From Desulfovirgula sp. (GTDB taxonomy: Bacteria; Bacillota; Desulfotomaculia; Desulfotomaculales; Desulfocucumaceae), in NCBI GenBank assembly GCA_020725625.1, contig DYET01000087.1:1-38901 (forward strand): a stretch of DNA of 38,901 bases. The letters are read 5' to 3'. Positions 4,503-27,376 of this stretch are shown in pieces (the first letter of the stretch is position 1; each line of letters begins with the position of its first letter). Below the pieces are notes generated by a model that was not told the origin of the DNA, searched no databases, and saw only the letters and a list, made by a program, of their open reading frames with translations. The translations under genes and the position numbers were made by a program.

Positions 4503-5809
4503 TTCTTCCTCAGCAGGAACCTCAGGGGGGTCCCCTCGAACCCGTAGGCCGAGCGGATTTGGTTTTCCAGGTAGCGCAGGTAGGAGAAGTGGGCCAGGTC
4601 CGGGTCATTGACAAAAAAGGTGAATTTTGGCGGCCTGACCCCGGTCTGGGTGGCGTAGTATATTTTCAGCCGCCGGGTCTTGTAGGCCGGAGGCGGATTT
4701 TGCAGGACCGATTCCCTGATCAGGCTGTTCAGCCCCGGCGTGGCCACCCTCAGGCTGTGGTTTCCGGCAGCGCCGTCAACCTCGCGGATAATCCCGGCCA
4801 CCCTCCGCCCGGTCAGGGCGGACACGAAAACCACCGGGGCGTACCTGGCAAAAACCAGATCCTCCCTTATCTGCTTTAAATACCTGTCCTGGGTCCGGTC
4901 GTCTTTTTTGATCAGGTCCCACTTGTTGACCGCGATCACCAGGGCCCTGCCCTGATCATGGGCGTATCCCGCAATTTTCTTGTCCTGGTCTGTGATCCCG
5001 TCCACCGCGTCGATGACCAGGAGCACCACGTCGCTGCGGTCCACCGCCCTGAGCGCCCTGATCACGCCGTACCTTTCGGTGGAAAGGTCAATGCGGCTCT
5101 TTCTCCTGATTCCCGCCGTATCGATGAGCAGGTAACGCCGGCCGTCCTGCTCGAAGAAGGTGTCTATGGCGTCCCTGGTGGTGCCGGGCAGATCGCTAAC
5201 AATCACACGTTCCTCGCCGAGTATTTTGTTTACCAGGGAGGATTTGCCCACGTTGGGCCGGCCTATGACGGCAATCCTGACCAGGTCCCGGCCTTCCGGA
5301 TCTTCTCCGACCGGGGGCAGGCTTTTCACCACCGCGTCCAGCATGTCGCCGGTGTTTAGGCCCTGGGCGGCCGAGACGGGAATCGGATCACCGAGTCCGA
5401 GGCCGTAAAACTCGAAGTAATCCTTTTGAGACTGGAAGTCGTCTACCTTGTTGGCCACCAGGATTACCGGCTTGTCGGCCTTTCGCAAGACGGCGGCGAT
5501 CTCCCGGTCGCCGGGGGTAAGGCCGGATTTGGCATCCACCAGGAAAACGACCACGTCGGCCTCGTTTATGGCAATTTCAGCCTGTCTCCTGACATTACTG
5601 GCAATCTCGTCCTGATCGGCGAAGTCCAGTCCTCCGGTGTCCACCAGGGTGAAGGGCCGGCCCGCCCACTCGGCGGCCTGGTACAGCCTGTCCCTGGTCA
5701 CTCCGGGCACTTCCTCCACGATGGCCAGCCTCTCCCCCACGATGCGGTTGAACAGCGTGGATTTGCCCACATTGGGCCTGCCCACGATGGCAACGATCGG
5801 CTTTGGCAT
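4463..5809 (-). CDS. der: Ribosome biogenesis GTPase Der (EngA)
   Basis: Der carries two tandem GTPase domains and acts in maturation of the 50S subunit. P-loops GRPNVGKST at residues 10-18 and GRPNVGKSS around 183-191 are seen, with DTGG and DTAG switch motifs, NKVD and NKWD specificity motifs, and a C-terminal KH-like domain (KFTFFVNDPDLAHFSYLRYLENQIR). The 448-residue length is slightly above the usual 435-440. The extra tail GGKRQETENRS is encoded inside a dispersed intergenic repeat. The start ATG directly follows the stop of the DUF512 gene (TAAATG), so translation is probably coupled. Confidence 0.98.
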   Translation of the reverse strand: MPKPIVAIVGRPNVGKSTLFNRIVGERLAIVEEVPGVTRDRLYQAAEWAGRPFTLVDTGGLDFADQDEIASNVRRQAEIAINEADVVVFLVDAKSGLTPGDREIAAVLRKADKPVILVANKVDDFQSQKDYFEFYGLGLGDPIPVSAAQGLNTGDMLDAVVKSLPPVGEDPEGRDLVRIAVIGRPNVGKSSLVNKILGEERVIVSDLPGTTRDAIDTFFEQDGRRYLLIDTAGIRRKSRIDLSTERYGVIRALRAVDRSDVVLLVIDAVDGITDQDKKIAGYAHDQGRALVIAVNKWDLIKKDDRTQDRYLKQIREDLVFARYAPVVFVSALTGRRVAGIIREVDGAAGNHSLRVATPGLNSLIRESVLQNPPPAYKTRRLKIYYATQTGVRPPKFTFFVNDPDLAHFSYLRYLENQIRSAYGFEGTPLRFLLRKKAGGKRQETENRS

Positions 5810-15338: not shown

Positions 15339-16646
15339 TTATTCTTTCTCTATTGATTTTAATACGTCAAAAAAACCGGGAAATGAAACGTCGGCGCATT
15401 CCGCGCCCCGGATGACGGTTTTCCCTTCGGACACCAGGCCGGCTACCGCCATGGCCATGGCTATGCGATGGTCACCGCCGGGGTCCACTTCCGTTCCCCT
15501 TAATCTGTTGCCCGGCCTGACCAGGAACCCGTCCTCCAGTTCGCGTATGTCCACCCCGAATTTCCGCAGGCAGCCTACCACGGAGGCAATCCGGTCGGAC
15601 TCCTTGACCTTCAGTTCCGACGCCTCCCTGACCACCGTTTCTCCCGCGGCCATTGATGCGGCAACGGCCAATACCGGTATCTCGTCAATCAGCCTCGGGA
15701 TCAGGTCGCCCATGATTACTGTCCCGCGCAGTTCCGAAGATCTCACCCGGATGTCTGAAACGGGCTCGCCGCCGGCCTCCCGGGTGTTAAAGACCCGGAT
15801 GTCTGCCCCCATTCTCAGGAGCGCCTCGATTATCCCGTCCCGGGTGGGGTTGGTGCCCACTCTCCGGATGGTCAGGTCGGAGTCCGGCGTCACGGCGGCG
15901 GCCACCAGCAGAAAAGCCGCGGAAGATATATCGCCGGGCACGGCAATCCTGCTTCCCCTGAGAACACTGCTGCCGCTCACCCCGACCCGGTTCCCCCGCA
16001 CCTCGACCTCTGCTCCCAAGTGTCTGAGCATCCTCTCGGTATGGTCCCGGGATTTACAAGGTTCGGTAACGAAGGTCCATCCCCCGGCAAACAGGCCAGC
16101 CAGCAGTACGGCCGACTTGACCTGGGCGCTGGCCACCGGTGACGAATAGTCGATGGCTTTCAGGTTTCCGCCCTTCACAGCCAGGGGTGCCAGGGTGTTG
16201 TTGCGGCGGCCCAGAATTAAGGCGCCCATCCGGGTCAGCGGGTCCACCACCCGGCCCATGGGCCGGGACCGCAGCGAATCGTCGCCGGTGATTACGCTAA
16301 AAAAGTCCTGCCCGGCCAGTATGCCGGCCATCAGGCGGATGGTGGTGCCGGAGTTTTGGGCGTCCAGCACTCTGCGGGGTTCCCTCAGACCCCTTAGGCC
16401 CCGTCCGGAGATGACCAGCCTTCCCCGGTCGGGGCCGCGGAATTCGACGCCCATTTCCATGAAGCATTTCATGGTAGCCAGGCAGTCTTCACCGGTAAGG
16501 AAATTTTCCACTACGGTCTCTCCCTCGGCGATGGCTCCCAGCATCACCGCCCGGTGGGAGACGGACTTGTCACCGGGTACGCAGACGGTGCCCAAAAGTC
16601 CCTTTGAGGGAGTGATTAACCTTTCTATCTTGACACATCCTTTCAT
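15339..16646 (-). CDS. aroA: 3-phosphoshikimate 1-carboxyvinyltransferase (EPSP synthase)
   Basis: AroA joins PEP to shikimate-3-phosphate to give EPSP, the step before chorismate synthase. The 435-residue product begins with TPSKGLLGTVCVPGDKSVSHRAVMLGA (conserved lysine and SHR). It carries NSGTTIRLMAGILAG, EVDPGGDHRIAMAMAVAG near the C-terminus, and the acidic and lysine-rich LKVKESDRI motif, in family order. The start at ATG 16646 has little Shine-Dalgarno signal. It follows tyrA after 92 bases, and the gene set aroF-tyrA-aroA is one direction-consistent cluster. Confidence 0.97.
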   Translation of the reverse strand: MKGCVKIERLITPSKGLLGTVCVPGDKSVSHRAVMLGAIAEGETVVENFLTGEDCLATMKCFMEMGVEFRGPDRGRLVISGRGLRGLREPRRVLDAQNSGTTIRLMAGILAGQDFFSVITGDDSLRSRPMGRVVDPLTRMGALILGRRNNTLAPLAVKGGNLKAIDYSSPVASAQVKSAVLLAGLFAGGWTFVTEPCKSRDHTERMLRHLGAEVEVRGNRVGVSGSSVLRGSRIAVPGDISSAAFLLVAAAVTPDSDLTIRRVGTNPTRDGIIEALLRMGADIRVFNTREAGGEPVSDIRVRSSELRGTVIMGDLIPRLIDEIPVLAVAASMAAGETVVREASELKVKESDRIASVVGCLRKFGVDIRELEDGFLVRPGNRLRGTEVDPGGDHRIAMAMAVAGLVSEGKTVIRGAECADVSFPGFFDVLKSIEKE

Positions 16647-16738
16647 TAGTTAAAGTTAAAACCCGGGAAAATACGGGGCGGGCAGGTTTTTCGCCGTTTT
16701 TAGCGGGATTTTGCGAAAAATGCGGCGGGCTTTTCGAA

Positions 16739-17848
16739 TTACGGCCGCTTTTTGGCCGGGATACCCGCTTCCCTAATCAGGGCCACGGCCCTGTCCTGGT
16801 CCTCCCCGCTGGCGAAGGCCAGCCTGATGGTTCCCCCCTCGCCTTCCCGGACCCGCAGGATTTCAATGTCGCTGATGTTGATCCCGGCGTCCCCCAGAAT
16901 CCCTGCAATCCGGCCGATTATCCCTGGCCGGTCGGGGACGGTGACCACAATTTCCCACAGGGCCGGCAGGTAGCCCTTGGTCCGGGCCGGCATCCCGGCC
17001 TTGAGGGTTCTGGCCCTGTCCAGAAACCGGTATATCTTCACGGGGTCACCGACTTCTACGGCCTCCCGGAACTCGTCCAGCCTCCTCGTGAAGGCCGAGA
17101 GGGCCTCCAGGATGAATTCGCGGTTGGTCAGGAATATGTCCCGCCACATTTCGGCGTTGCCGGCGGCTATCCTGGTGGTGTCCCGGAAACCTCCGGCCGC
17201 CAGGAGGGACATCTTTTCACTGCCCGGAAGGTCGAACAGGCAGTTTACCAGGGCGGCCGCCGCCAGGTGCGGAAGGTGGCTGACGGCCGCCACCGACAGG
17301 TCGTGTTCAACCGGGTCCATCAGTACGGGACGCGATCCGATCCCCTCCACCAGGCGGACCAGCTTTAGAAGGTCGTCCTCCGGCGTGCCGTCCCGGGGGG
17401 TGAGGACGTAAAAGGCGTTTTCGAACAGGTAAGGATCGGCCCCGGCTATTCCCTCCTTTTCGGATCCGGCCATGGGGTGGCCGCCGATGAAAACCACGCC
17501 TTCCGGCAAAACGCTTGCAGATTTCTCAATAATTTGTACCTTTGTGCTGCCGACGTCGGTGACCAGGACGCCCGGGGCCAGGCAGGGCGATATTTCCGAC
17601 AGGACGCCGATGGTGGATCCCACGGGGGTGGCTACTACGACCAGGTCGCAGCCTTCCAGGGCGTCGTAGCTGAGTGACGCCCGGTGCACGGCTCCGCACT
17701 CCAGGGCGGTTTCCAGGGCCTTTTGGCTGCGCCCGATGCCGAGTACTTCACCGGCCATGGATTTCCGGTTGATGGCGAGCCCAAGGGAGCCCCCGATGAG
17801 TCCCACTCCCACTATGGCCACCTTCTTGAAAAGGGGTTTACCGGACAT
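16739..17848 (-). CDS. tyrA: Prephenate dehydrogenase with C-terminal ACT domain
   Basis: TyrA oxidatively decarboxylates prephenate to 4-hydroxyphenylpyruvate for tyrosine synthesis. The Rossmann motif [10 protein letters not shown] starts near residue 14, with TDVGSTK and [13 protein letters not shown] for the catalytic core and a histidine in AAVSHLPHL. From about residue 295 an ACT domain ([32 protein letters not shown]) suggests allosteric control by an aromatic amino acid, usually tyrosine. The ATG lies inside the end of aroF (11-base overlap), so the two are translationally coupled. Confidence 0.97.
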
Positions 17849-18863
17849 CGGGCATGGTCCTGTTCATTATCTTGCTGACCTGGCGCACCTCTTCCATGAG
17901 AATCCTGAAATTTTCCGGAGTCAAGGACTGCGGCCCGTCGCAGAGGGCCTCCGACGGGTTGGGGTGAACCTCCACCAGCAGGCCGTCGGCGCCGGCGGCT
18001 ACGGCCGCCCTGGCCATGGGCGGAACAAAGCGCCACTTGCCGATGGCGTGGCTGGGGTCCACGATTACCGGCAGGTGCGTTAGGTATTTCAGGACCGGCA
18101 CTGCGGTAAGGTCAAGAGTGTTTCTGGTGTATGGATCGAAACTCCTGATGCCCCTCTCGCAGAGGATAACCTGCTGGTTTCCGCCGGATATGATGTATTC
18201 GGCCGCCATCAGCCACTCTTCGATGGTGGCCGAGGGGCCCCTTTTCAGGAGCACCGGTTTTCCCGTCGTGGCTGCGTCCCTGAGCAGGAAAAAGTTCTGC
18301 ATGTTCCGGGCGCCTATCTGCAGGATGTCGGCGTACTGGGTCACCAGGGACAGGGTTTTGGAGTCCATGACCTCTGTGACTATGTAGAGGCCGGTGGCCT
18401 CTCTGGCCTCCGCCAGCATTTCCAGCCCTTTTTCTTCCAGGCCCTGAAAGGAATAGGGGGACGTCCGGGGTTTGAAGGCGCCCCCCCTGAGGACTGTGGC
18501 GCCGGCCTCCTTTACCCGGAAGGCGGCTTCCATGAGCTGTTCCCTACTTTCCACGGCACAGGGGCCGGCCATCACATGGACGGCCTGACCGCCGATTTGA
18601 ATGTCGCCGACCGTGACAACGGTGTCCTGTTCCTTGAAGTTTCTGCTTGCCAGCTTAAACGGGGCCAGGATGGGCACCACTTTTTCCACGCCGGGCATGG
18701 CCTCCAGGGCCAGGCTCCCCAGCCTTGTCTTGTCCCCGATGGCGCCGATTATGGTTCTTTCCACCCCGCGGGAGAGGTGGATTTGAAACCCGGACTTCTC
18801 GAGCTTCCTAATCACTGACTCTATATCCTTTTCATTGGCATCGTGATTCATTACCACAATCAA
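17838..18863 (-). CDS. aroF: 3-deoxy-7-phosphoheptulonate synthase (DAHP synthase)
   Basis: This enzyme condenses PEP and erythrose-4-phosphate, the committed step into the shikimate pathway. The 341-residue product has an N-terminal ferredoxin-like domain ([21 protein letters not shown], to about 70) followed by a KDO8P/DAHP-type barrel with [39 protein letters not shown] and [10 protein letters not shown]. This is the regulated type I-beta layout, where the N-terminal domain can mediate feedback inhibition. TTG 18863 is supported by GGAGG eight bases upstream. A terminator-like hairpin lies in the leader (18908-18950). Confidence 0.97.
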
Positions 18864-19176: not shown

Positions 19177-20079
19177 TTAAATTGTTGCCGTTCCCCGCCG
19201 TTCCCCGGCTTCCCGCCGGCCTTGAGGGGGGCCCGTTCTCTCTTCCGGTACGGTCGCCCCGGCCCCTTTCCGCTGCCTCAGCGTGTCTTTGATTTCCCGG
19301 GCCAGCCTGCCCACCCTGCTGGTAATCCCCGTCAGGCCTCCACCGCCGTCCACGGCACTGACGATGGCGCTGCCCACTACCACCGCGTCGCAGTGGGCGG
19401 CCGCCTTTAAGGCCGAGTCCGGTCCGGAGATGCCGAAGCCCACCACCAGCGGGCTGTCCGTGTAGCTTCTCAGCCTGTTTGTAAAGGACTTCAGGTCCGT
19501 GTTTATTTCCGCCCTTGGGCCGGTGACCCCGGTGACCGACACGCAGTATATGAACCCGTCGGCCCTGGAGGCGATTTTTTTCAGCCTCCTGTCCGTCGAG
19601 GTGGGGGCCGCCAGGGGAACAAGGGACAGCCCCGCCTCCGCTGTTTCGTACCGGAGCGGGCTATCTTCCTCCACCGGCAGGTCTGGTACGATCAGCCCGT
19701 CAATTCCGCAATCCCGCGCCCGGTTGACGAAGGCGACCGTTCCCGACCTGAACACGGGATTGTAATAGGTCATTAACAGGACGGGGATGTCAGCGTACTT
19801 CCTGAAGGCATGGGCGATATCAAAAACGTCGGCCAGCCTGGTTCCCCTCGCCAGGGCCAGGTTGGAAGCCCTCTGGATTACCGGGCCGTCGGCTATCGGG
19901 TCGGAAAAGGGGAGGCCTATTTCGACCAGGTCTGAACCGGCGTCCGCCAGGGCCTTGAGAATTTCCAGGGTGTGCCCGGGCTCGGGATAGCCGGCCGTGA
20001 TGTAGGTGATCAACCCTTTTTCGCCGGTTTCCCGCAGGCGGGAAAATGCACCGGCGATTCTTGATTTTCCGGTAATCAA
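19177..20079 (-). CDS. trpA: Tryptophan synthase alpha subunit
   Basis: TrpA cleaves indole-3-glycerol phosphate and passes indole to TrpB through a tunnel in the alpha2-beta2 complex. The catalytic glutamate is in [23 protein letters not shown], together with the second acidic residue (D in SDP). The phosphate-binding region [27 protein letters not shown] is intact. The 300-residue product is longer than the usual 265-270 because of a basic, low-complexity C-terminal tail ([20 protein letters not shown]). TTG 20079 overlaps the trpB stop (TTGA). It is the last gene of trpEGDCFBA. Confidence 0.97.
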
Positions 20080-21269
20080 CCTTCCACCCCCAGTACCCTG
20101 GCCGCGGTTTCAACGTCCTTGTCACCGCGGCCGGAAAGGCAGACCACGATGACCGCGTCCCGGCCCATGACCGGTGCCGTCCTGATGGCCTCGGCCAGGG
20201 CGTGGGAGCTTTCCAGGGCGGGGACCACACCCTCGGTCCGGCAGAGGATTTTAAAGGCCTCAAGGGCCTCCAGGTCGGTGACCGAGGTGTATTTAACCCT
20301 CCCGGACTCTTTCAGGAAGCTGTGTTCCGGTCCCACGCCGGGATAGTCCAGGCCAGCGGATATCGAGTGGGCCAGCATGATCTGGCCTTCGGTGTCCTGC
20401 AGAACGTAACTCAGGGAGCCGTGCAGCACTCCCGGGCTTCCGGCGGCCAGGGCGGCCGCGTGCCTTCCGGTTTCCAGTCCGCGGCCCGCCGCTTCTACGC
20501 CCGCCAGGGCGGAGCCAGTCTCTAGGAACGGGTGGAAAATGCCCATGGCGTTGCTGCCCCCGCCCACGCAGGCGACGACGAGATCCGGAAGCCTGCCCTC
20601 GGCGGCCAGAATCTGATCCTTTGTTTCCTCGCCGATGACCTTCTGGAAGTCCCTGACCATCACCGGGTACGGATGGGGGCCGGCCACCGATCCAACAAGG
20701 TAGTGGGTGTTTTCCACGTTGGCCACCCAGTCCCTCATGGCTTCGTTCATGGCGTCCTTGAGGGTCCGGCTTCCCGAGGAGACGGGAACCACTTCGGCGC
20801 CCAGCAGCCTGATCCTGAACACGTTCAGGGACTGCCGGGCCATGTCCTCCTCGCCCATGTAGACGGTGCACTCCATGTCAAAAAGGGCGGCGGCGGTGGC
20901 GGCGGCTACGCCGTGCTGTCCGGCGCCGGTTTCGGCCACGACCCTTTTTTTCTTCATTCTCCGGGCCAGCAGGATTTGGCCCAGGGTGTTGTTTATCTTG
21001 TGCGCCCCGGTGTGGTTGAGGTCCTCCCTCTTGAGGTAAATCTTGGCCCCTCCGCAGTACTCTGTGAGCCGCCCGGCGAAGTACAGGGGGGACGGCCTGC
21101 CGACGTATTTTTTGAGCAGGCCGCGGTACTGGTCCTGGAAGATCGGGTCCTCCTTGGCCTCCCTGTAGCAGGACTCCAGTTCTTCCAGGGCGGGCATCAG
21201 CGTCTCGGGGACGAACCTGCCCCCGAAGGGCCCGAAATAACCCATGCTGTCGGGCATCATGTAAGTCAA
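20076..21269 (-). CDS. trpB: Tryptophan synthase beta subunit
   Basis: TrpB condenses indole with serine on pyridoxal phosphate. The PLP lysine lies in [15 protein letters not shown], and the phosphate-binding glycines in [34 protein letters not shown] and the C-terminal [11 protein letters not shown] complete the family pattern, which is that of classic TrpB1 rather than the stand-alone TrpB2. The open frame starts at TTG 21269, overlapping the trpF stop. ATG 21260, three codons in and nine bases after AAGGG, is an equally good start. Confidence 0.98.
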
Positions 21270-21877
21270 CCCTTGACCCTCCTGACGAATTCCCTTATTT
21301 TTACCGGATCTTTTTGGCCGTCGGTTTCCACCCCGCTGCTGACGTCAACCGCGTAAGGGCCTGCGATGTTTATGGCCTCCCTGACGTTCTCCGGGGTCAG
21401 GCCCCCCGCCAGGATCAGGGGGCCTGCCCGGAAGTTCGCGGCCAGCCGCCAGTCAAAGGTCCTGCCGGTTCCGCCCCGGCGGCCTGGGACCCGGGCGTCC
21501 AGCAGGTAGGCGTCAACCCTGTAGCTGCCCGCCGGAGCGAGGTCAGCCTCCCGGGACACGGCGAAAGATTTGATCACCTTAAGCCCCAGGGCCCTGCAGA
21601 ACTCCGGGGTCTCGTCGCCGTGCAGCTGGACCGTGTCAATCCTGGCGCGGTCCACTGCGTCCGCCACTTCTTCCAGCGTCGGGTTGACGAATACCCCGAC
21701 CCGGGAGACGAAGGGGGGAAGCCTGCTGGTGATTTCCCCCGCCCGGCCCGGGCTGATCCTCCTCCTGCCCGGAGCGAAGACGAAGCCCAGGGCGTCGGCC
21801 CCGGCCTCCACTGCCACAAGGGCTGATTCCAGATCGCAGATGCCGCATATTTTTACCCGAACGCACCTTTTTTCCAT
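21266..21877 (-). CDS. trpF: Phosphoribosylanthranilate isomerase
   Basis: TrpF performs the Amadori rearrangement of phosphoribosylanthranilate in tryptophan synthesis. The catalytic cysteine is in [13 protein letters not shown] near the N-terminus, and the catalytic aspartate in [17 protein letters not shown] near the C-terminus. [13 protein letters not shown] and [10 protein letters not shown] are typical barrel loops. The 203-residue length is normal. ATG 21877 lies 33 bases after the trpC stop, the largest gap within the operon apart from trpG-trpD, and its ribosome site (AGGGG) is 11 bases away. Confidence 0.96.
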
Positions 21878-21910
21878 AAAGCGGACAACCCCTGACCTTT
21901 TTAACCATCG

Positions 21911-22693
21911 TCACTGCCCGTGCAGCAGCTCCATCACCTTGGCCGCTACGTTCCCGGCCGCCATCAGGGCCTCCCCCACCAGGGCCGCATGGACTCCGGC
22001 CTCTTTCAACGCCCTCATGTCGGCCGCGGATTTTATCCCGCTTTCACTGACCACCACCGCCGGACTGCCCCTCAAATGCCGGCAGAGGCGGAAAGTGGTG
22101 CTGATGTCCGTCCGAAATGTTTTCAGGTCCCGGTTGTTGATCCCGATCAGGCCGGCCCCGGCCTCCAGGGCCGAATCCAGGTCGGACTCGTCGTGGACTT
22201 CCACCAGGGCTTCCAGTCCCGCGTCCCGGGCCGTCCCCATCAGGGCGCGGAGTGCGCCGGGCGGCAGGGCCGCGCAGATCAGCAGGACTGCGTCCGCGCC
22301 GATGAGCCTGGCCTGGTACACCTGGACAGGGTCGATAATGAAATCTTTCCTGAGCAGGGGGAGGGTTGTAATTCTTCTCACCCTTTTCAGGTGCCCGGGA
22401 CAGCCGCCGAAAAACATCCGGTCGGTCAGTACCGAAATGGCGTCGGCCCCGCTGTCATGATAGATCCGGGCGATCTGACAAGGGTCGAATTGTTTCCGGA
22501 TGACCCCCCTGGACGGGGAGGCGCCTTTTATTTCGGCCAGCAGTGCCACCCTGCCCGGCCTGTTCAGCGCCTGGGACAGGGATCGGGCCGGCGGCAGCCG
22601 TTCGACCGCCCTGATCACCGACTTTGCGTCCATGTGACGCTTCAGCAGGTTTACTTCCCGGCGCTTGTTTGCCAGGATGCTGTCCAGGATCAC
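21911..22693 (-). CDS. trpC: Indole-3-glycerol phosphate synthase
   Basis: TrpC closes the indole ring with decarboxylation. The barrel has LLAEIKGASPSRGVI (first catalytic lysine), LLRKDFIIDPVQVYQARLIGADAVLLI (second lysine), EALVEVHDESDLDSAL and GINNRDLKTF, all in the family order. The 260-residue length is usual. GTG 22693 overlaps the trpD stop (GTGA), so translation is coupled. TrpC and TrpF are separate proteins here, unlike the Escherichia coli fusion. Confidence 0.97.
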   Translation of the reverse strand: MILDSILANKRREVNLLKRHMDAKSVIRAVERLPPARSLSQALNRPGRVALLAEIKGASPSRGVIRKQFDPCQIARIYHDSGADAISVLTDRMFFGGCPGHLKRVRRITTLPLLRKDFIIDPVQVYQARLIGADAVLLICAALPPGALRALMGTARDAGLEALVEVHDESDLDSALEAGAGLIGINNRDLKTFRTDISTTFRLCRHLRGSPAVVVSESGIKSAADMRALKEAGVHAALVGEALMAAGNVAAKVMELLHGQ

Positions 22694-23739
22694 GGCAGGG
22701 CCGCCTTTGCGGCCGGCCTGGCCGTGAACTCCACCAGCTGCCTGAGTTTTTTGGCGGCCTCGCCGGTGTCAATGGCTGCTCTGGCTTTTTCCAAGCCCCG
22801 GGCCAGGTCCGGGGCAAGTCCCGCCGCCACCAGCGCCAGGGCCGAGTTGAGGATGACCGCGTCCCGGCGGGGCCCTCCCTCACCCTCCAGGATCCTCTTT
22901 ACGATGGCCGCATTTTCGGCCGGGGTCCCGCCCCTCAGGCTGTCCAGGCGGCATCTTTTGATGCCGTATGCCATGGGGTCTATTTCATAGCTGCGGATCT
23001 TCCCCCCGGCCACCTCGCAGACATATGCCGGGCCGGCCGGGGTAATCTCGTCGGTTCCGCCCGCCCCGTGCAGCACAAAGGCCCTCCTGACGCCCAGCCT
23101 GGCCAGAACCTCGGCCAGCCTGGGAACCAGGTCCCTGCTGAACACGCCCAGCACCTGTGCATTGGCCCCGGCCGGGTTGGTCAGGGGGCCCAGCAGGTTG
23201 AACACCGTCCTGACCCCGATTTCCCGGCGCGGCCCGGCGGCGTGCCTCATGGCGCCGTGCAGGACCGGGGCAAAGAGGAAGGCCATGCCCACTTCGTCAA
23301 GGCAGCTTCCGGCCTCCTCGGCCGAAAGGTCGATGTTCACTCCCAGCGCCTCAAGGAGGTCGGCGGACCCGCACCGGCTGGAAACCGACCGGTTGCCGTG
23401 TTTGGCCACCGCTGCTCCGCATCCGGCGGCCACCAGCGCGGCCGCGGTAGATATGTTAAAGGTGTTTGCCCCGTCCCCGCCGGTGCCGCAGGTGTCCACG
23501 AGGACCCGGTGCCTGGTCCGGACGGGGGCGGCCCTGCTTTTCATCACCCGCGCGAAGCCCGTTATCTCGCCCACGGTTTCCCCTTTCAGCCGCATGGCGA
23601 TCAGCAGGGCCCCGATCTGGGCCGGGCTGGCTTCGCCGTCCATGATTGACGCCATCACTTTACCGGCCTCTTCTTCTTCCAGGCTCCCTCCCGCAACCAC
23701 CTTCCGGATTGCTTCCCTGATCAGTTCCGTCCCGTCCAT
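22690..23739 (-). CDS. trpD: Anthranilate phosphoribosyltransferase
   Basis: TrpD transfers phosphoribose from PRPP to anthranilate. The PRPP-binding motif DTCGTGGDGANTFNIST is present, as are AAVAKHGNRSVSSRCGSADLLEALG and the acidic metal-binding region HGAGGTDEITP. The 349-residue length is normal. The ATG start has GGGAGGG nine bases upstream. It is separated from trpG by 28 bases, whereas the genes downstream of it overlap. Confidence 0.98.
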   Translation of the reverse strand: MDGTELIREAIRKVVAGGSLEEEEAGKVMASIMDGEASPAQIGALLIAMRLKGETVGEITGFARVMKSRAAPVRTRHRVLVDTCGTGGDGANTFNISTAAALVAAGCGAAVAKHGNRSVSSRCGSADLLEALGVNIDLSAEEAGSCLDEVGMAFLFAPVLHGAMRHAAGPRREIGVRTVFNLLGPLTNPAGANAQVLGVFSRDLVPRLAEVLARLGVRRAFVLHGAGGTDEITPAGPAYVCEVAGGKIRSYEIDPMAYGIKRCRLDSLRGGTPAENAAIVKRILEGEGGPRRDAVILNSALALVAAGLAPDLARGLEKARAAIDTGEAAKKLRQLVEFTARPAAKAALP

Positions 23740-23767
23740 GCCGCGCTTCCCTCCCGGTTAAACCCGA

Positions 23768-24340
23768 TTATAATCCGTTGTTGACCAGAAAATTCCTCAA
23801 TATCTCCCGGCCGTGGTCGGTAAGAACGGACTCGGGGTGAAACTGAACTCCTTCCACGCTGTAAGTCCTGTGCCTCAAGCCCATGATCTCGCCGTCAGCG
23901 GTCCAGGCGCTGATTTCCAGACAAGGAGGCAGCCCCCGGCGGTCAACCACCAGGGAGTGGTACCTGACGGCGGAAAACGGTGAAGGAATGCCCCTGAACA
24001 GTCCCTTCCCGTCGTGGAAAATCATGGAGGACTTGCCGTGCATGATCTCTCTGGCCCTGACCACCTCCCCGCCGTACACCCTGCCGATGGCCTGGTGCCC
24101 CAGGCAAACTCCCAGGACCGGGATCCGTCCCGCCTGCCCGGCGATGGCGGCCATGGTAATCCCGGCCCCGTCGGGGCGGCCCGGCCCCGGTGAGATGACC
24201 AGTCCCGAGGGCGCCAATTTTTCTATGTCCTCTTCCCGCAGGCAGTCGTTCCTGACCACCGAAACCGCCGCCCCCAGATCCGAAAAGTACTGGAATAGGT
24301 TGTAGGTGAAGGAGTCGTAATTGTCAATAATCAGCAGCAA
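23768..24340 (-). CDS. trpG: Anthranilate synthase glutamine amidotransferase subunit
   Basis: TrpG hydrolyses glutamine and delivers ammonia to TrpE. The class I amidotransferase triad is visible: the cysteine in LGVCLGHQAIG, and the histidine and glutamate in VQFHPES. SPGPGRPD and the N-terminal IIDNYDSFTYNL are typical of the TrpG/PabA group. The 190-residue length is normal. TTG 24340 overlaps the end of trpE by ten bases. The same subunit could also serve 4-amino-4-deoxychorismate synthase if no separate pabA exists; that cannot be told from this window. Confidence 0.97.
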   Translation of the reverse strand: MLLIIDNYDSFTYNLFQYFSDLGAAVSVVRNDCLREEDIEKLAPSGLVISPGPGRPDGAGITMAAIAGQAGRIPVLGVCLGHQAIGRVYGGEVVRAREIMHGKSSMIFHDGKGLFRGIPSPFSAVRYHSLVVDRRGLPPCLEISAWTADGEIMGLRHRTYSVEGVQFHPESVLTDHGREILRNFLVNNGL

Positions 24341-25809
24341 TTTCCCACGTCCTCCCCGGCCAGGGCCTTAAGGAGAGCCTCAGCCTTGTTTTCAGTCTCG
24401 GTGAATTCCCGGCCGGGGTCGGAATCGGCGACAATACCGGCCCCCACCTGCACCGAGGCCTTACCGCCATGGAAAACCACCGTCCGGATAGCGATGGCCG
24501 TATCCACATTGCCGTTGAACCCGATGTATCCCACCGCTCCGGCGTAGGGGCCCCGCCGGGAAGGCTCAAGTTCCTCGATGATTTCCATGGCTCTCACCTT
24601 GGGGGCCCCGGATACCGTTCCGGCCGGAAAACAGGCCTTCAGGGCGTCCAAGCCGCTGAGGCCGGCGGCCAGTTCCCCCTTCACCGACGAGACCAGGTGC
24701 ATGACGTGGGAGTACCTTTCAACTTCCATAAACTGGGACACCTTCACCGTGCCCGGCCTGCTCACCCGGCCCAGGTCGTTCCTGCCCAAATCCACAAGCA
24801 TTATGTGTTCGGCCCTTTCCTTGGGGTCGGAGATCAGATCGTCGGCCAGCATCCTGTCTTCCCGTTCGCCGGCGCCCCGCGGCCTGGTTCCCGCGATGGG
24901 TCTTGTTTCTACGCTTCCGTCCTCCACCCGGACCAGCATCTCGGGGGACGAACCGGCCATCACGACGCCCCCCATGTCCAGGTAAAAGAGGTAGGGTGAG
25001 GGGTTGCTTCTTCTCAGCCTCCTGTAGACCGTGAAGGGGTCCCCCCTGAAATCCAGGTCGATCCTCCTTGAAAGCACCACCTGAAGGATTTCTCCCGCCC
25101 TGATGTACTCCTTGGCCTTCTCGACCCTCTCCATGAATTCGGCCCTGGACAGGTTTGTTTTTGCCGCCGCGGCCCCGCATTTGTCCGGGGGCCCCAGGGG
25201 AGGAGGGGGTGGGCCGGCGGATATGCGGGCGAGGATTTCCTCGATCTGCCCCAGGGCCCTTCTGTACTCCGCTGCGGCGTTACCGGCGGGGCGAGTGCTG
25301 ACGACCACTCTCATGGTGTGCCTGACATGGTCGATGACCACCGTTGCCCGGGGGACCATCAGCATGCAGTCTGGAACCCCTGTTTCCTCCCGGTTTAAAT
25401 CGGGCAGCCTTTCCAGGTGCCTGGCCAGGTCGTAGCCCAGATAGCCCACCAGGCCGCCGTAAAACCGGGGCATATCCTTTAATTCCGGGGAGTTGAATCC
25501 GGCCAGGATTTCTTCGATGGCCGCGAAGGGGTCCCCGGAGGCGGCTTTTCTTACGCCTTCCCCGTCCTCCAGCGTTACGTCGCCGCAATGGCAGGTAAGC
25601 AGGGCCAGCGGGTCCAGCCCAATAAAGGAATACCTGCCCAGCCTTTCGCCCCCTTCAACGCTTTCCAGCAAAAACGAGGGCTTCCGGCCGGCGGTCTTGG
25701 CGAAAACCGTAATCGGCGTCTCGGTGTCGGAGGGCCATTCCAGGCTGACGGGCACCGATTTGTAGTCCCTGCAGAGTTCCAGGTATTCTTTTTCCCCGGG
25801 ATAATACAT
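24331..25809 (-). CDS. trpE: Anthranilate synthase component I
   Basis: TrpE converts chorismate to anthranilate using ammonia from TrpG. The N-terminal SFLLESVEGGERLGRYSFIG holds the LLES feedback site for tryptophan. The chorismate-binding half has SSPEMLVRVEDGSVETRPIAGTRPRG, DLGRNDLGRVSRPGTV and AGTVSGAPKVRAMEII. I place the start at ATG 25809 (492 residues), eight bases after GGGAGG. The longer frame from 25848 begins inside the leader terminator. It is the first gene of trpEGDCFBA and is controlled by the leader at 25824-25941. Confidence 0.98.
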   Translation of the reverse strand: MYYPGEKEYLELCRDYKSVPVSLEWPSDTETPITVFAKTAGRKPSFLLESVEGGERLGRYSFIGLDPLALLTCHCGDVTLEDGEGVRKAASGDPFAAIEEILAGFNSPELKDMPRFYGGLVGYLGYDLARHLERLPDLNREETGVPDCMLMVPRATVVIDHVRHTMRVVVSTRPAGNAAAEYRRALGQIEEILARISAGPPPPPLGPPDKCGAAAAKTNLSRAEFMERVEKAKEYIRAGEILQVVLSRRIDLDFRGDPFTVYRRLRRSNPSPYLFYLDMGGVVMAGSSPEMLVRVEDGSVETRPIAGTRPRGAGEREDRMLADDLISDPKERAEHIMLVDLGRNDLGRVSRPGTVKVSQFMEVERYSHVMHLVSSVKGELAAGLSGLDALKACFPAGTVSGAPKVRAMEIIEELEPSRRGPYAGAVGYIGFNGNVDTAIAIRTVVFHGGKASVQVGAGIVADSDPGREFTETENKAEALLKALAGEDVGNCC

Positions 25810-25823
25810 GCAGCCGGCCTCCC

Positions 25824-25860
25824 GAAAAAATAAAATACCGGCGCTCAAATGAGCACCGGT
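25824..25860 (-). terminator. trp leader attenuator terminator
   Basis: A 10-pair stem (25837-25846 with 25851-25860, one G-U pair) with a four-base loop is followed by a U-rich tract (25824-25836) just before the trpE ribosome site. Bases 25851-25860 are also the 3' arm of an alternative antiterminator, so only one of the two structures can form. Confidence 0.88.
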
Positions 25861-25891
25861 TGTTGAAGCGCTTAAGTATTACAACCCGCTC
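25851..25891 (-). promoter_or_regulatory. trp leader antiterminator
   Basis: Minus-strand bases 25891-25881 pair with 25863-25851: four outer pairs (GAGC/GCTC), one G-U pair, a two-base bulge and six inner pairs (GGTTGT/ACAACC). This uses the 5' half of the terminator. The last (G/U)AG triplet (25889-25891) lies in its 5' arm, so a protein bound to the triplets would block it and favour termination. Confidence 0.75.
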
Positions 25892-25941
25892 ATCTCAGCT
25901 CATGCTCAGCTCGGTATGGTCTTCTCGTCTCTGCTCTTCTA
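25889..25941 (-). promoter_or_regulatory. TRAP-type array of eleven (G/U)AG triplets in the trp leader
   Basis: Reading the minus strand, triplets lie at 25941-39 (UAG), 25936-34, 25931-29 and 25926-24 (GAG), 25921-19 (GAC), 25916-14 (UAC), then 25912-10, 25907-05, 25901-899, 25896-94 and 25891-89 (all GAG). Gaps are 2,2,2,2,2,1,2,3,2,2 bases. Nine of eleven are exact. In Bacillus subtilis, the 11-subunit TRAP protein binds eleven (G/U)AG triplets spaced by 2-3 bases and induces trp termination in high tryptophan. The arrangement is seen; the binding protein is inferred. The first triplet may coincide with the transcription start. Confidence 0.82.
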
Positions 25942-25946
25942 AAAAG

Positions 25947-25975
25947 AATATATCAGATCCGGCCCGGGGTGTCAA
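25947..25975 (-). promoter_or_regulatory. trp operon promoter, sigma-A type
   Basis: TTGACA (25970-25975 on the minus strand) and TATATT (25947-25952) are separated by 17 bases. Predicted transcription start is around 25940, at the first triplet of the TRAP-type array. Confidence 0.9.
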
Positions 25976-25986
25976 TAAAAAACGAG

Positions 25987-26364
25987 TTACTGGGGCAGCA
26001 GGTCCTGCCTGAGCACGGTGGCCCCCCGGAGGTAGACATGGCGAAGCTCCTGCTGGGATTTTTCGGTGTTCACCAGGACCATCACCCGGATGCACTTTCC
26101 CAGGCGGCCGGGGACGTTGATTTCATTCCCGCACAGCATAGGCACGTAGGTCCAGCCCAGGAACTCCCTGGCCGCCGTAGCCGGAAACTCGGCATCCAGG
26201 TCCGCGGTGACGGTGAAAAAGGCGGCCGCGATGTCGCCCGTATCGATTTCGTTCTCCCTTACAATCTCGCCCAAAAGCTCCTTGGTGGCCTCCAGGATGT
26301 CCCGGGAGTCGTTCCTTTCGACTGTTATCGCCCCCCGTATTCCCCTGACCGCCCGCTTTTCCAT
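25987..26364 (-). CDS. aroH: Chorismate mutase, AroH type
   Basis: AroH rearranges chorismate to prephenate, feeding phenylalanine and tyrosine synthesis. The 125-residue product matches the trimeric monofunctional AroH class: VRGIRGAITVERND at the N-terminus (active-site arginine), FTVTADLDAEFPA, PMLCGNEINVPG (cysteine and glutamate), and CIRVMVLVNT with the second arginine, followed by the tyrosine in HVYLRGA. GGAG lies eight bases before the ATG. It follows the HutP-family gene by about 30 bases and precedes the trp promoter, so it competes with TrpE for chorismate from a separate transcript. Confidence 0.96.
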   Translation of the reverse strand: MEKRAVRGIRGAITVERNDSRDILEATKELLGEIVRENEIDTGDIAAAFFTVTADLDAEFPATAAREFLGWTYVPMLCGNEINVPGRLGKCIRVMVLVNTEKSQQELRHVYLRGATVLRQDLLPQ

Positions 26365-26394: not shown

Positions 26395-26817
26395 CTAGTC
26401 AGATGTCACCGCCCTGTGCCCGAGCCCGACGGCCACCTCGTCCAGGTGAAGCAGGCCTACGCCGAAAAACACGGCCACGGTGATGTGGTCCTTGTGGCGG
26501 GCGATGCCTATTTTGCCGCCGATGTTCAGGCCCAGGGCCTTGTGCATAATCTGGGACATGGCCTCCCTGGCTGCGCCTGCCACGGCCCCCTCCTCGGCGT
26601 GGATTTCCCTGATCACTCCCTCCCGTTTGGCGGCCACCACGGCCCTTTCGATGATCTTGTTGAATGACGATATGAAGTCGCCTCCATAGTCCACCGCAGC
26701 CGTCCTTATACCTTCCCGGGCAAAGGAGGCCTTGTATTCCCTCTCCTGTTCCCGGTCGTCGGTAAGGGCCATCTCCAGGGCCACCTTGGCCACCTTCCTG
26801 CTTCCGTGGAGGACCAA
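26395..26817 (-). CDS. HutP family protein
   Basis: The 140-residue product resembles HutP: KVAKVALEMALTDDREQE, then GIRTAAVDYGGDFISSFNKIIERAVVAAKREGVIREIHAEEGAVAGAAREAM and the terminal LHLDEVAVGLGHRAV. Histidines in REIHAEEG and GLGHRA correspond by position to metal/histidine-binding residues of Bacillus HutP, although HutP's second RESHALYH histidine is glycine here. Bacillus HutP binds NAG-triplet RNA with histidine and Mg2+ to antiterminate hut. I place the start at TTG 26817, because a good promoter lies at 26900-26928, inside the longer open frame to 26994. The G10 run at 26827-26836 may serve as ribosome site. No hut gene is nearby; its neighbours are aroH and trp. Confidence 0.83.
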   Translation of the reverse strand: MVLHGSRKVAKVALEMALTDDREQEREYKASFAREGIRTAAVDYGGDFISSFNKIIERAVVAAKREGVIREIHAEEGAVAGAAREAMSQIMHKALGLNIGGKIGIARHKDHITVAVFFGVGLLHLDEVAVGLGHRAVTSD

Positions 26818-26850
26818 TGCCGCGCACCCCCCCCCCGCAATAAAACTGCA

Positions 26851-26871
26851 GCACTCCGCCGGCCGGAGTGC
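26851..26871 (-). promoter_or_regulatory. Hairpin in the leader of the HutP-family gene
   Basis: A perfect 8-pair stem (26851-26858 with 26864-26871) with a five-base loop lies about 25 bases after the predicted -10 box. A short run of four Us follows after four bases. It may be a weak terminator or an autoregulatory site. No binding protein is known. Confidence 0.55.
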
Positions 26872-26899
26872 GTAGTCCTTCTTTCTTTTGGCAATATTT

Positions 26900-26928
26900 A
26901 TTATATTCCAGCGGCTTTTAAAAGACAA
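26900..26928 (-). promoter_or_regulatory. Promoter of the HutP-family gene and aroH
   Basis: TTGTCT (26923-26928) and a perfect TATAAT (26900-26905) on the minus strand are 17 bases apart, a good sigma-A match in an AT-rich patch. It argues that the open frame upstream of 26893 is not part of the HutP-family gene. Confidence 0.8.
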
Positions 26929-26953
26929 TACCACCTCCCGCCCCGTCTTTTGC

Positions 26954-27376
26954 TCAGGGTGGGCCCTCTGTTTCGACCCGGCCAAGGGAAACAAGGTTGC
27001 CGTTTAAGTTTATCACGTCGCCCTTCCTGGGAAACCTCACCGCCCCCGACACATCCAGGACTTCAATGCTGACCGGCCTGTTGTAAAAGGTGCCGTCGAT
27101 AACCAGGCTGTCCCCGTCGTGGACGGCCACAGTAACGTACCTGTTCTTGAAATTTCCCCTGACCTCGTTGTTGACCACCACCCTGACGTATGGGAGCAGG
27201 GAATAATCCCGCAGGTAGAAGGTTACCGCCTGGCCGCCTTCCGCCCAGCCGGCCCCGTTTCCGAACGGACTCCTTCCGTCCACGGCGGCCTGGTCCCGGT
27301 AGCCGGACGCCAGCTGAAGGGAAAGAAAGAGGGCCGCGGCCGCGAAAAGCATCCTGGACAAAAGTTTCTCGGCCAA
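26954..27376 (-). CDS. Exported or membrane-anchored protein of unknown function
   Basis: I do not recognise this 140-residue protein. Residues 10-25 (MLFAAAALFLSLQLAS) form a hydrophobic helix that could be a signal peptide or anchor. The remainder is a small beta-rich domain (YVRVVVNNEVRGNF, VTVAVHDGDSLVIDGTFYNRPVSIEVLDVSG) with no cysteine. TTG 27376 is preceded by AAGGGG with seven bases between; the GTG 27385 above it would touch that site. It ends 26 bases before the HutP-gene promoter. A neighbouring small unknown gene upstream (27464-27928) may be cotranscribed. Confidence 0.72.
   Translation of the reverse strand: MAEKLLSRMLFAAAALFLSLQLASGYRDQAAVDGRSPFGNGAGWAEGGQAVTFYLRDYSLLPYVRVVVNNEVRGNFKNRYVTVAVHDGDSLVIDGTFYNRPVSIEVLDVSGAVRFPRKGDVINLNGNLVSLGRVETEGPP

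Follow-up and report, generated by a model that had tools for sequence, protein, structure and literature searches.

In Bacillus subtilis, which provides the closest described system, the trp leader carries about eleven (G/U)AG triplets with spacers of 2-3 nt, and mutually exclusive antiterminator and terminator structures lie before trpE. The first three repeats are located within +32 to +52, the antiterminator at +60 to +111 and the terminator at +108 to +133 (PMC4027176); a 5' stem-loop lies ahead of the array (PMC3913778). The triplets are contacted by residues Glu36, Lys37, Lys56 and Arg58 of TRAP, and stable binding of TRAP was seen with RNAs carrying at least 7 repeats (PMC4027176).

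The trp operons of many Bacillota are governed by T-boxes, which also exert terminator/antiterminator control over trp genes but sense tRNA. TRAP beyond Bacillus has been discussed in the literature; in the openly available papers that we searched, we found no description of TRAP leaders in the lineage treated here.

We analysed a window of 38,901 nt (the whole stretch of DNA under study) from Desulfovirgula sp. of the order Desulfotomaculales. The leader of its trp operon is very probably a TRAP-controlled transcription attenuator. As in B. subtilis, (G/U)AG triplets numbering about eleven and spaced by 2-3 nt precede a terminator and a predicted, mutually exclusive antiterminator before trpE. 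A T-box was rejected as the control element: no Rfam match was obtained in the window at gathering thresholds, and the leader is also too short.

The trp operon and its leader

The genes stand on one strand in the order aroH, trpE, trpG, trpD, trpC, trpF, trpB, trpA, DAHP synthase, prephenate dehydrogenase and aroA. The features of the locus, in the direction of transcription, are as follows.

26395-26994, minus strand: HutP-family gene, just upstream of aroH (Pfam)
25987-26364, minus strand: aroH-type chorismate mutase gene, directly upstream of the promoter (NCBIfam)
25947-25975, minus strand: near-consensus sigma-A-type promoter of the trp operon (TTGACA, 17 nt, TATATT)
25889-25941, minus strand: predicted TRAP-binding array of 11 slots (9 exact GAG/UAG, plus GAC and UAC)
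25849-25893, minus strand: predicted antiterminator (AUGAGC/GCUCAU and GGUUGU/ACAACC), with weak statistics in this genome alone
25824-25860, minus strand: intrinsic terminator (attenuator) with a 10-bp stem and a U-rich tract (sequence and folding)
25818-25823, minus strand: Shine-Dalgarno sequence GGGAGG of trpE (sequence)
24331-25809, minus strand: trpE, anthranilate synthase component I (TIGR00564, above cutoff; ATG at 25809)
19177-24340, minus strand: trpG, trpD, trpC, trpF, trpB and trpA (NCBIfam)
15339-18863, minus strand: genes for DAHP synthase and prephenate dehydrogenase (tyrA), and aroA, downstream on the same strand (NCBIfam)

In several relatives too (e.g. G001, G005, G007, G013, G014, G028 and G046), the coordinates place a HutP gene no more than a few kb from trpE, and no hut genes are visible nearby.

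The original prediction, made from this DNA alone, had placed a sigma-A promoter and eleven spaced triplets, nine exact and two variant, ahead of trpE; both were recovered. On the minus strand, TTGACA (25975-25970) is separated by 17 nt from TATATT (25952-25947). The first bases of the exact triplets are at 25941 (UAG), 25936, 25931, 25926, 25912, 25907, 25901, 25896 and 25891 (GAG), slots 5 and 6 being GAC (25921) and UAC (25916), respectively. Spacers between slots are 2-3 nt, with one exception of 1 nt. When the whole window was shuffled 60 times with dinucleotides preserved and both strands scanned, none of the shuffles reached the 9 exact triplets per 53 nt of the array (maximum 6). In a genome of the same genus (G001), the trpE array also comprises 11 slots with 9 exact triplets; there, slots 5 and 6 are GAG and UAG, and two other slots are AAG and GGG. 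Because this genome shares the eleven-slot register, the eleven slots look real in Desulfovirgula, though some of them are non-canonical.

Transcription is predicted to start at about 25940, so that the array would begin at about +1, much as originally proposed. The first UAG, 6 nt downstream of the -10 box, coincides with this start and may therefore fall partly outside the transcript, a correction to the earlier picture. Where a promoter could be recognised (45 leaders), the first triplet lay a median of 18 nt from the -10 box, compared to 6 nt here.

The terminator had been predicted as well, and it too was recovered. ACCGGUGCUC (25860-25851) and GAGCGCCGGU (25846-25837) form a perfect 10-bp stem around the loop AUUU, followed by AUUUUAUUUUUUC to 25824; folding of the whole leader (-36.2 kcal/mol, z -3.2) gave a structure with the terminator formed. 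When the leader was cut before the 3' arm of the terminator, the predicted antiterminator appeared, in which AUGAGC (25893-25888) pairs with GCUCAU (25854-25849) and GGUUGU (25886-25881) with ACAACC (25863-25858). As anticipated, the last triplet is the only one of the array inside this structure. The proposal that the antiterminator uses the 5' arm of the terminator thus stood in the fold of the cut leader and in relatives, but not against shuffles of the Desulfovirgula sequence alone, where 72% of spacer shuffles did as well. Support for the predicted antiterminator is comparative: in 23 of the 47 leaders of relatives, the last GAG and the terminator arm were fully paired (10.2 expected from spacer shuffles), and the mean antiterminator z over these 47 leaders was -0.71.

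We propose that, when tryptophan is plentiful, tryptophan-loaded TRAP would wrap the GAG/UAG slots of the nascent 5' end, including the last triplet. Because the bound protein would cover that triplet, the AUGAGC/GCUCAU antiterminator could not form; the terminator (25860-25837) would form and transcription would halt upstream of trpE. When tryptophan is scarce, TRAP would stay unbound and the last triplet and the spacer after it would pair with the 5' arm of the terminator. With the antiterminator formed, RNA polymerase would read through into trpEGDCFBA and probably also into the aro genes behind. As to the protein itself, we infer its ring size, its dependence on tryptophan, and binding and termination in the cell.

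TRAP might also bind the array and act mainly on paused polymerase, or additionally block translation of trpE, rather than work through the antiterminator. TRAP of B. subtilis is able to induce termination without attenuator RNA (PMC3913778), and a single triplet lies in the antiterminator predicted here; both observations are in line with an action on polymerase. We nevertheless regard this as unlikely, since pairing between the last GAG and the terminator arm recurs above shuffles in relatives and the terminator is strong by itself. Translational control is further disfavoured in that no structure masking the Shine-Dalgarno sequence of trpE was seen in the leader.

TRAP and triplet arrays in Desulfovirgula and its relatives

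Attenuation of the trp operon by a TRAP-like protein, as originally suggested, gained support from the presence of a TRAP gene and from the way arrays track TRAP among genomes. A search of the Desulfovirgula genome identified mtrB at G000:C2:18120-18317 (E 1.3e-40, 138.9 bits, over the Pfam cut-off), on a different contig from the trp operon and between dnaE-like and pfkA-like genes; the absence of a TRAP homologue, named beforehand as grounds for refutation, was thereby not borne out. Aligned to a solved TRAP (1c9s), the encoded protein keeps 'HHSEKLDKGE' and 'TSAIKIRG', and the RNA-contacting residues Glu36, Lys37, Lys56 and Arg58 are conserved. The array before trpE offers eight or nine exact repeats to such a protein. 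In a few other genomes mtrB is close to trpE, unlike in Desulfovirgula; examples are G151 (contig C14) and G124 (contig C85), where the two genes are about 1-2 kb apart or less.

TRAP is encoded in 57 of 60 relatives. Within the order, a significant triplet array was found in 42 of the 46 trpE upstream regions tested, with a mean of 8.6 triplets per 58 nt. For genomes from outside the order, the same test was applied to the 350 nt upstream of the best TrpE match: arrays were present in 11 of 17 TRAP-encoding genomes, the other 6 showing none in that interval, versus 0 of 7 genomes lacking TRAP. In about 50 genomes of the order, trpE is preceded by an array and, after it, a terminator that fits the pattern ACCGGYRCUC-loop-GAGYRCCGGU; arrays are kept among relatives while spacers vary. 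One 99% complete genome (G002) has an 11-triplet trpE array, yet no TRAP match was found in its draft assembly; the missing match is probably an assembly gap.

These distributions also bear on the product of the HutP-family gene, which could bind the triplets and control termination with histidine or another ligand. The protein is a HutP homologue by Pfam, encoded just upstream of aroH, and such genes recur near trpE in relatives. Against it, no HutP match was obtained in about 17 relatives with trpE arrays (e.g. G003, G023, G031, G033, G040 and G048), TRAP, unlike HutP, is nearly universal in the relatives, and in number and spacing the triplets correspond to a TRAP site. Based on its distribution across relatives, we rejected HutP as the array-binding protein and consider that role very improbable. 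There is hardly any chance that the array is a fortuitous GAG-rich stretch beside an ordinary constitutive terminator: purine-rich leaders do occur, but the shuffles, the conservation of arrays with varying spacers and their tracking of TRAP refute this in practice.

A second leader before pabA-pabB-pabC

In B. subtilis, TRAP controls trpG/pabA of the folate operon by translational repression. A pattern search of the Desulfovirgula genome turned up another array on contig C69, upstream of pabA-pabB-pabC, likewise placing TRAP-type triplets ahead of a pabA/trpG-type gene.

L142 1490-1620, and L235 (G000:C69, about 4780-4950): pab leader, with triplet array, element and terminator

The pabB gene passed the NCBIfam cutoff for pabB but not that for trpE; for pabA and pabC, the assignment came from context and from family matches that mostly fell short of equivalog cut-offs. 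The leader ends in a nearly invariant GACGACUCGGAG-N-GGGGUGAGRACC followed by a terminator. The consensus of the element was also written as GAGACGACUCGGAG-N4..8-GGGGUGAGRACC, with the terminator directly after. In contrast to the B. subtilis folate operon, control here looks transcriptional, since the pab leader combines a promoter of its own with a terminator and the nearly invariant GACGACUCGGAG...GGGGUGAGRACC element. Folding of the leader found no antiterminator.

The pab leader is also present in relatives. Each of the 41 distinct leaders is enriched in triplets upstream of the element (on average 4.9 in 47 nt, versus 2.2 after shuffling), and slots 9 and 11 vary among GAG, UAG and CAG only, with one exception. 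One double compensatory change was seen in a CUC/GAG helix, and there is covariation in the terminator as well. No Rfam family matched the element. With a covariance model, about 40 of the 113 genomes from the order gave strong matches to it. Across 398 genomes of the phylum, an exact pattern picked out the element in 14, each of them also encoding TRAP; these 14 include a group that does not belong to the order and in which the element is followed by a pabB gene.

By eye, part of the element resembles the start of a leader peptide (GGAG, 7-9 nt, GUG/AUG). This reading is not favoured, because two leaders have GUAG in place of GGAG, whereby the triplet is kept and the Shine-Dalgarno sequence lost. 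Tentatively, the TRAP regulon could be a small aromatic/folate set, in which the undescribed RNA element of the pab leader embeds TRAP slots 9-11 and either acts through a TRAP-gated switch unlike the Bacillus antiterminator or senses a second signal; we find this quite possible without leaning towards it. The element is the newest part of the analysis and could be new.

A third array (G000:C199:24750; L144 1480-1540), a weak run of triplets that overlaps the beginning of a membrane-like ORF of 70 aa, is not claimed and is probably due to chance, because it lies at the noise level of the pattern (one match in the reversed-pattern control). Two other observations were made near pab loci: CTAGCTGTTAGC/AGCTACT units form a short tandem-like run upstream of the pab locus (L142 730-810), and a selenocysteine tRNA (Rfam RF01852, just over threshold) is located at L188 1053-1143 on the minus strand, near the pab leader of G040.

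Comparison with Bacillus and implications

The Desulfovirgula system shares with B. subtilis the RNA-contacting residues of TRAP and the position of aroH upstream of trpE. It differs in several respects. The array is predicted to run from about +1 and therefore leaves no room for a 5' stem-loop, and only the last triplet lies in the predicted antiterminator. trpG is inside the trp operon, unlike in B. subtilis. An anti-TRAP gene, in contrast to B. subtilis, was not found: the Desulfovirgula genome gave no match. Among 113 genomes of the order, there was one clear case of an anti-TRAP-like protein (74 aa, 54 bits; G046:C1:1839768-1839935, L145). Of the weak matches elsewhere, most fell in frames some 380 aa long, which is what DnaJ zinc fingers would give.

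TRAP, studied mainly in Bacillus, is probably standard in this lineage too. Arrays and TRAP occur together across a whole order of anaerobes and in other families of the phylum, indicating that Bacillus is not alone in attenuating trp by means of TRAP. The pab leader reveals a second, more conserved TRAP-linked RNA that is absent from Rfam. With its array at the predicted +1 and an overlap of one triplet, the layout of the Desulfovirgula leader offers a natural test of which Bacillus features are essential, among them the 5' stem-loop, the broad overlap and anti-TRAP.
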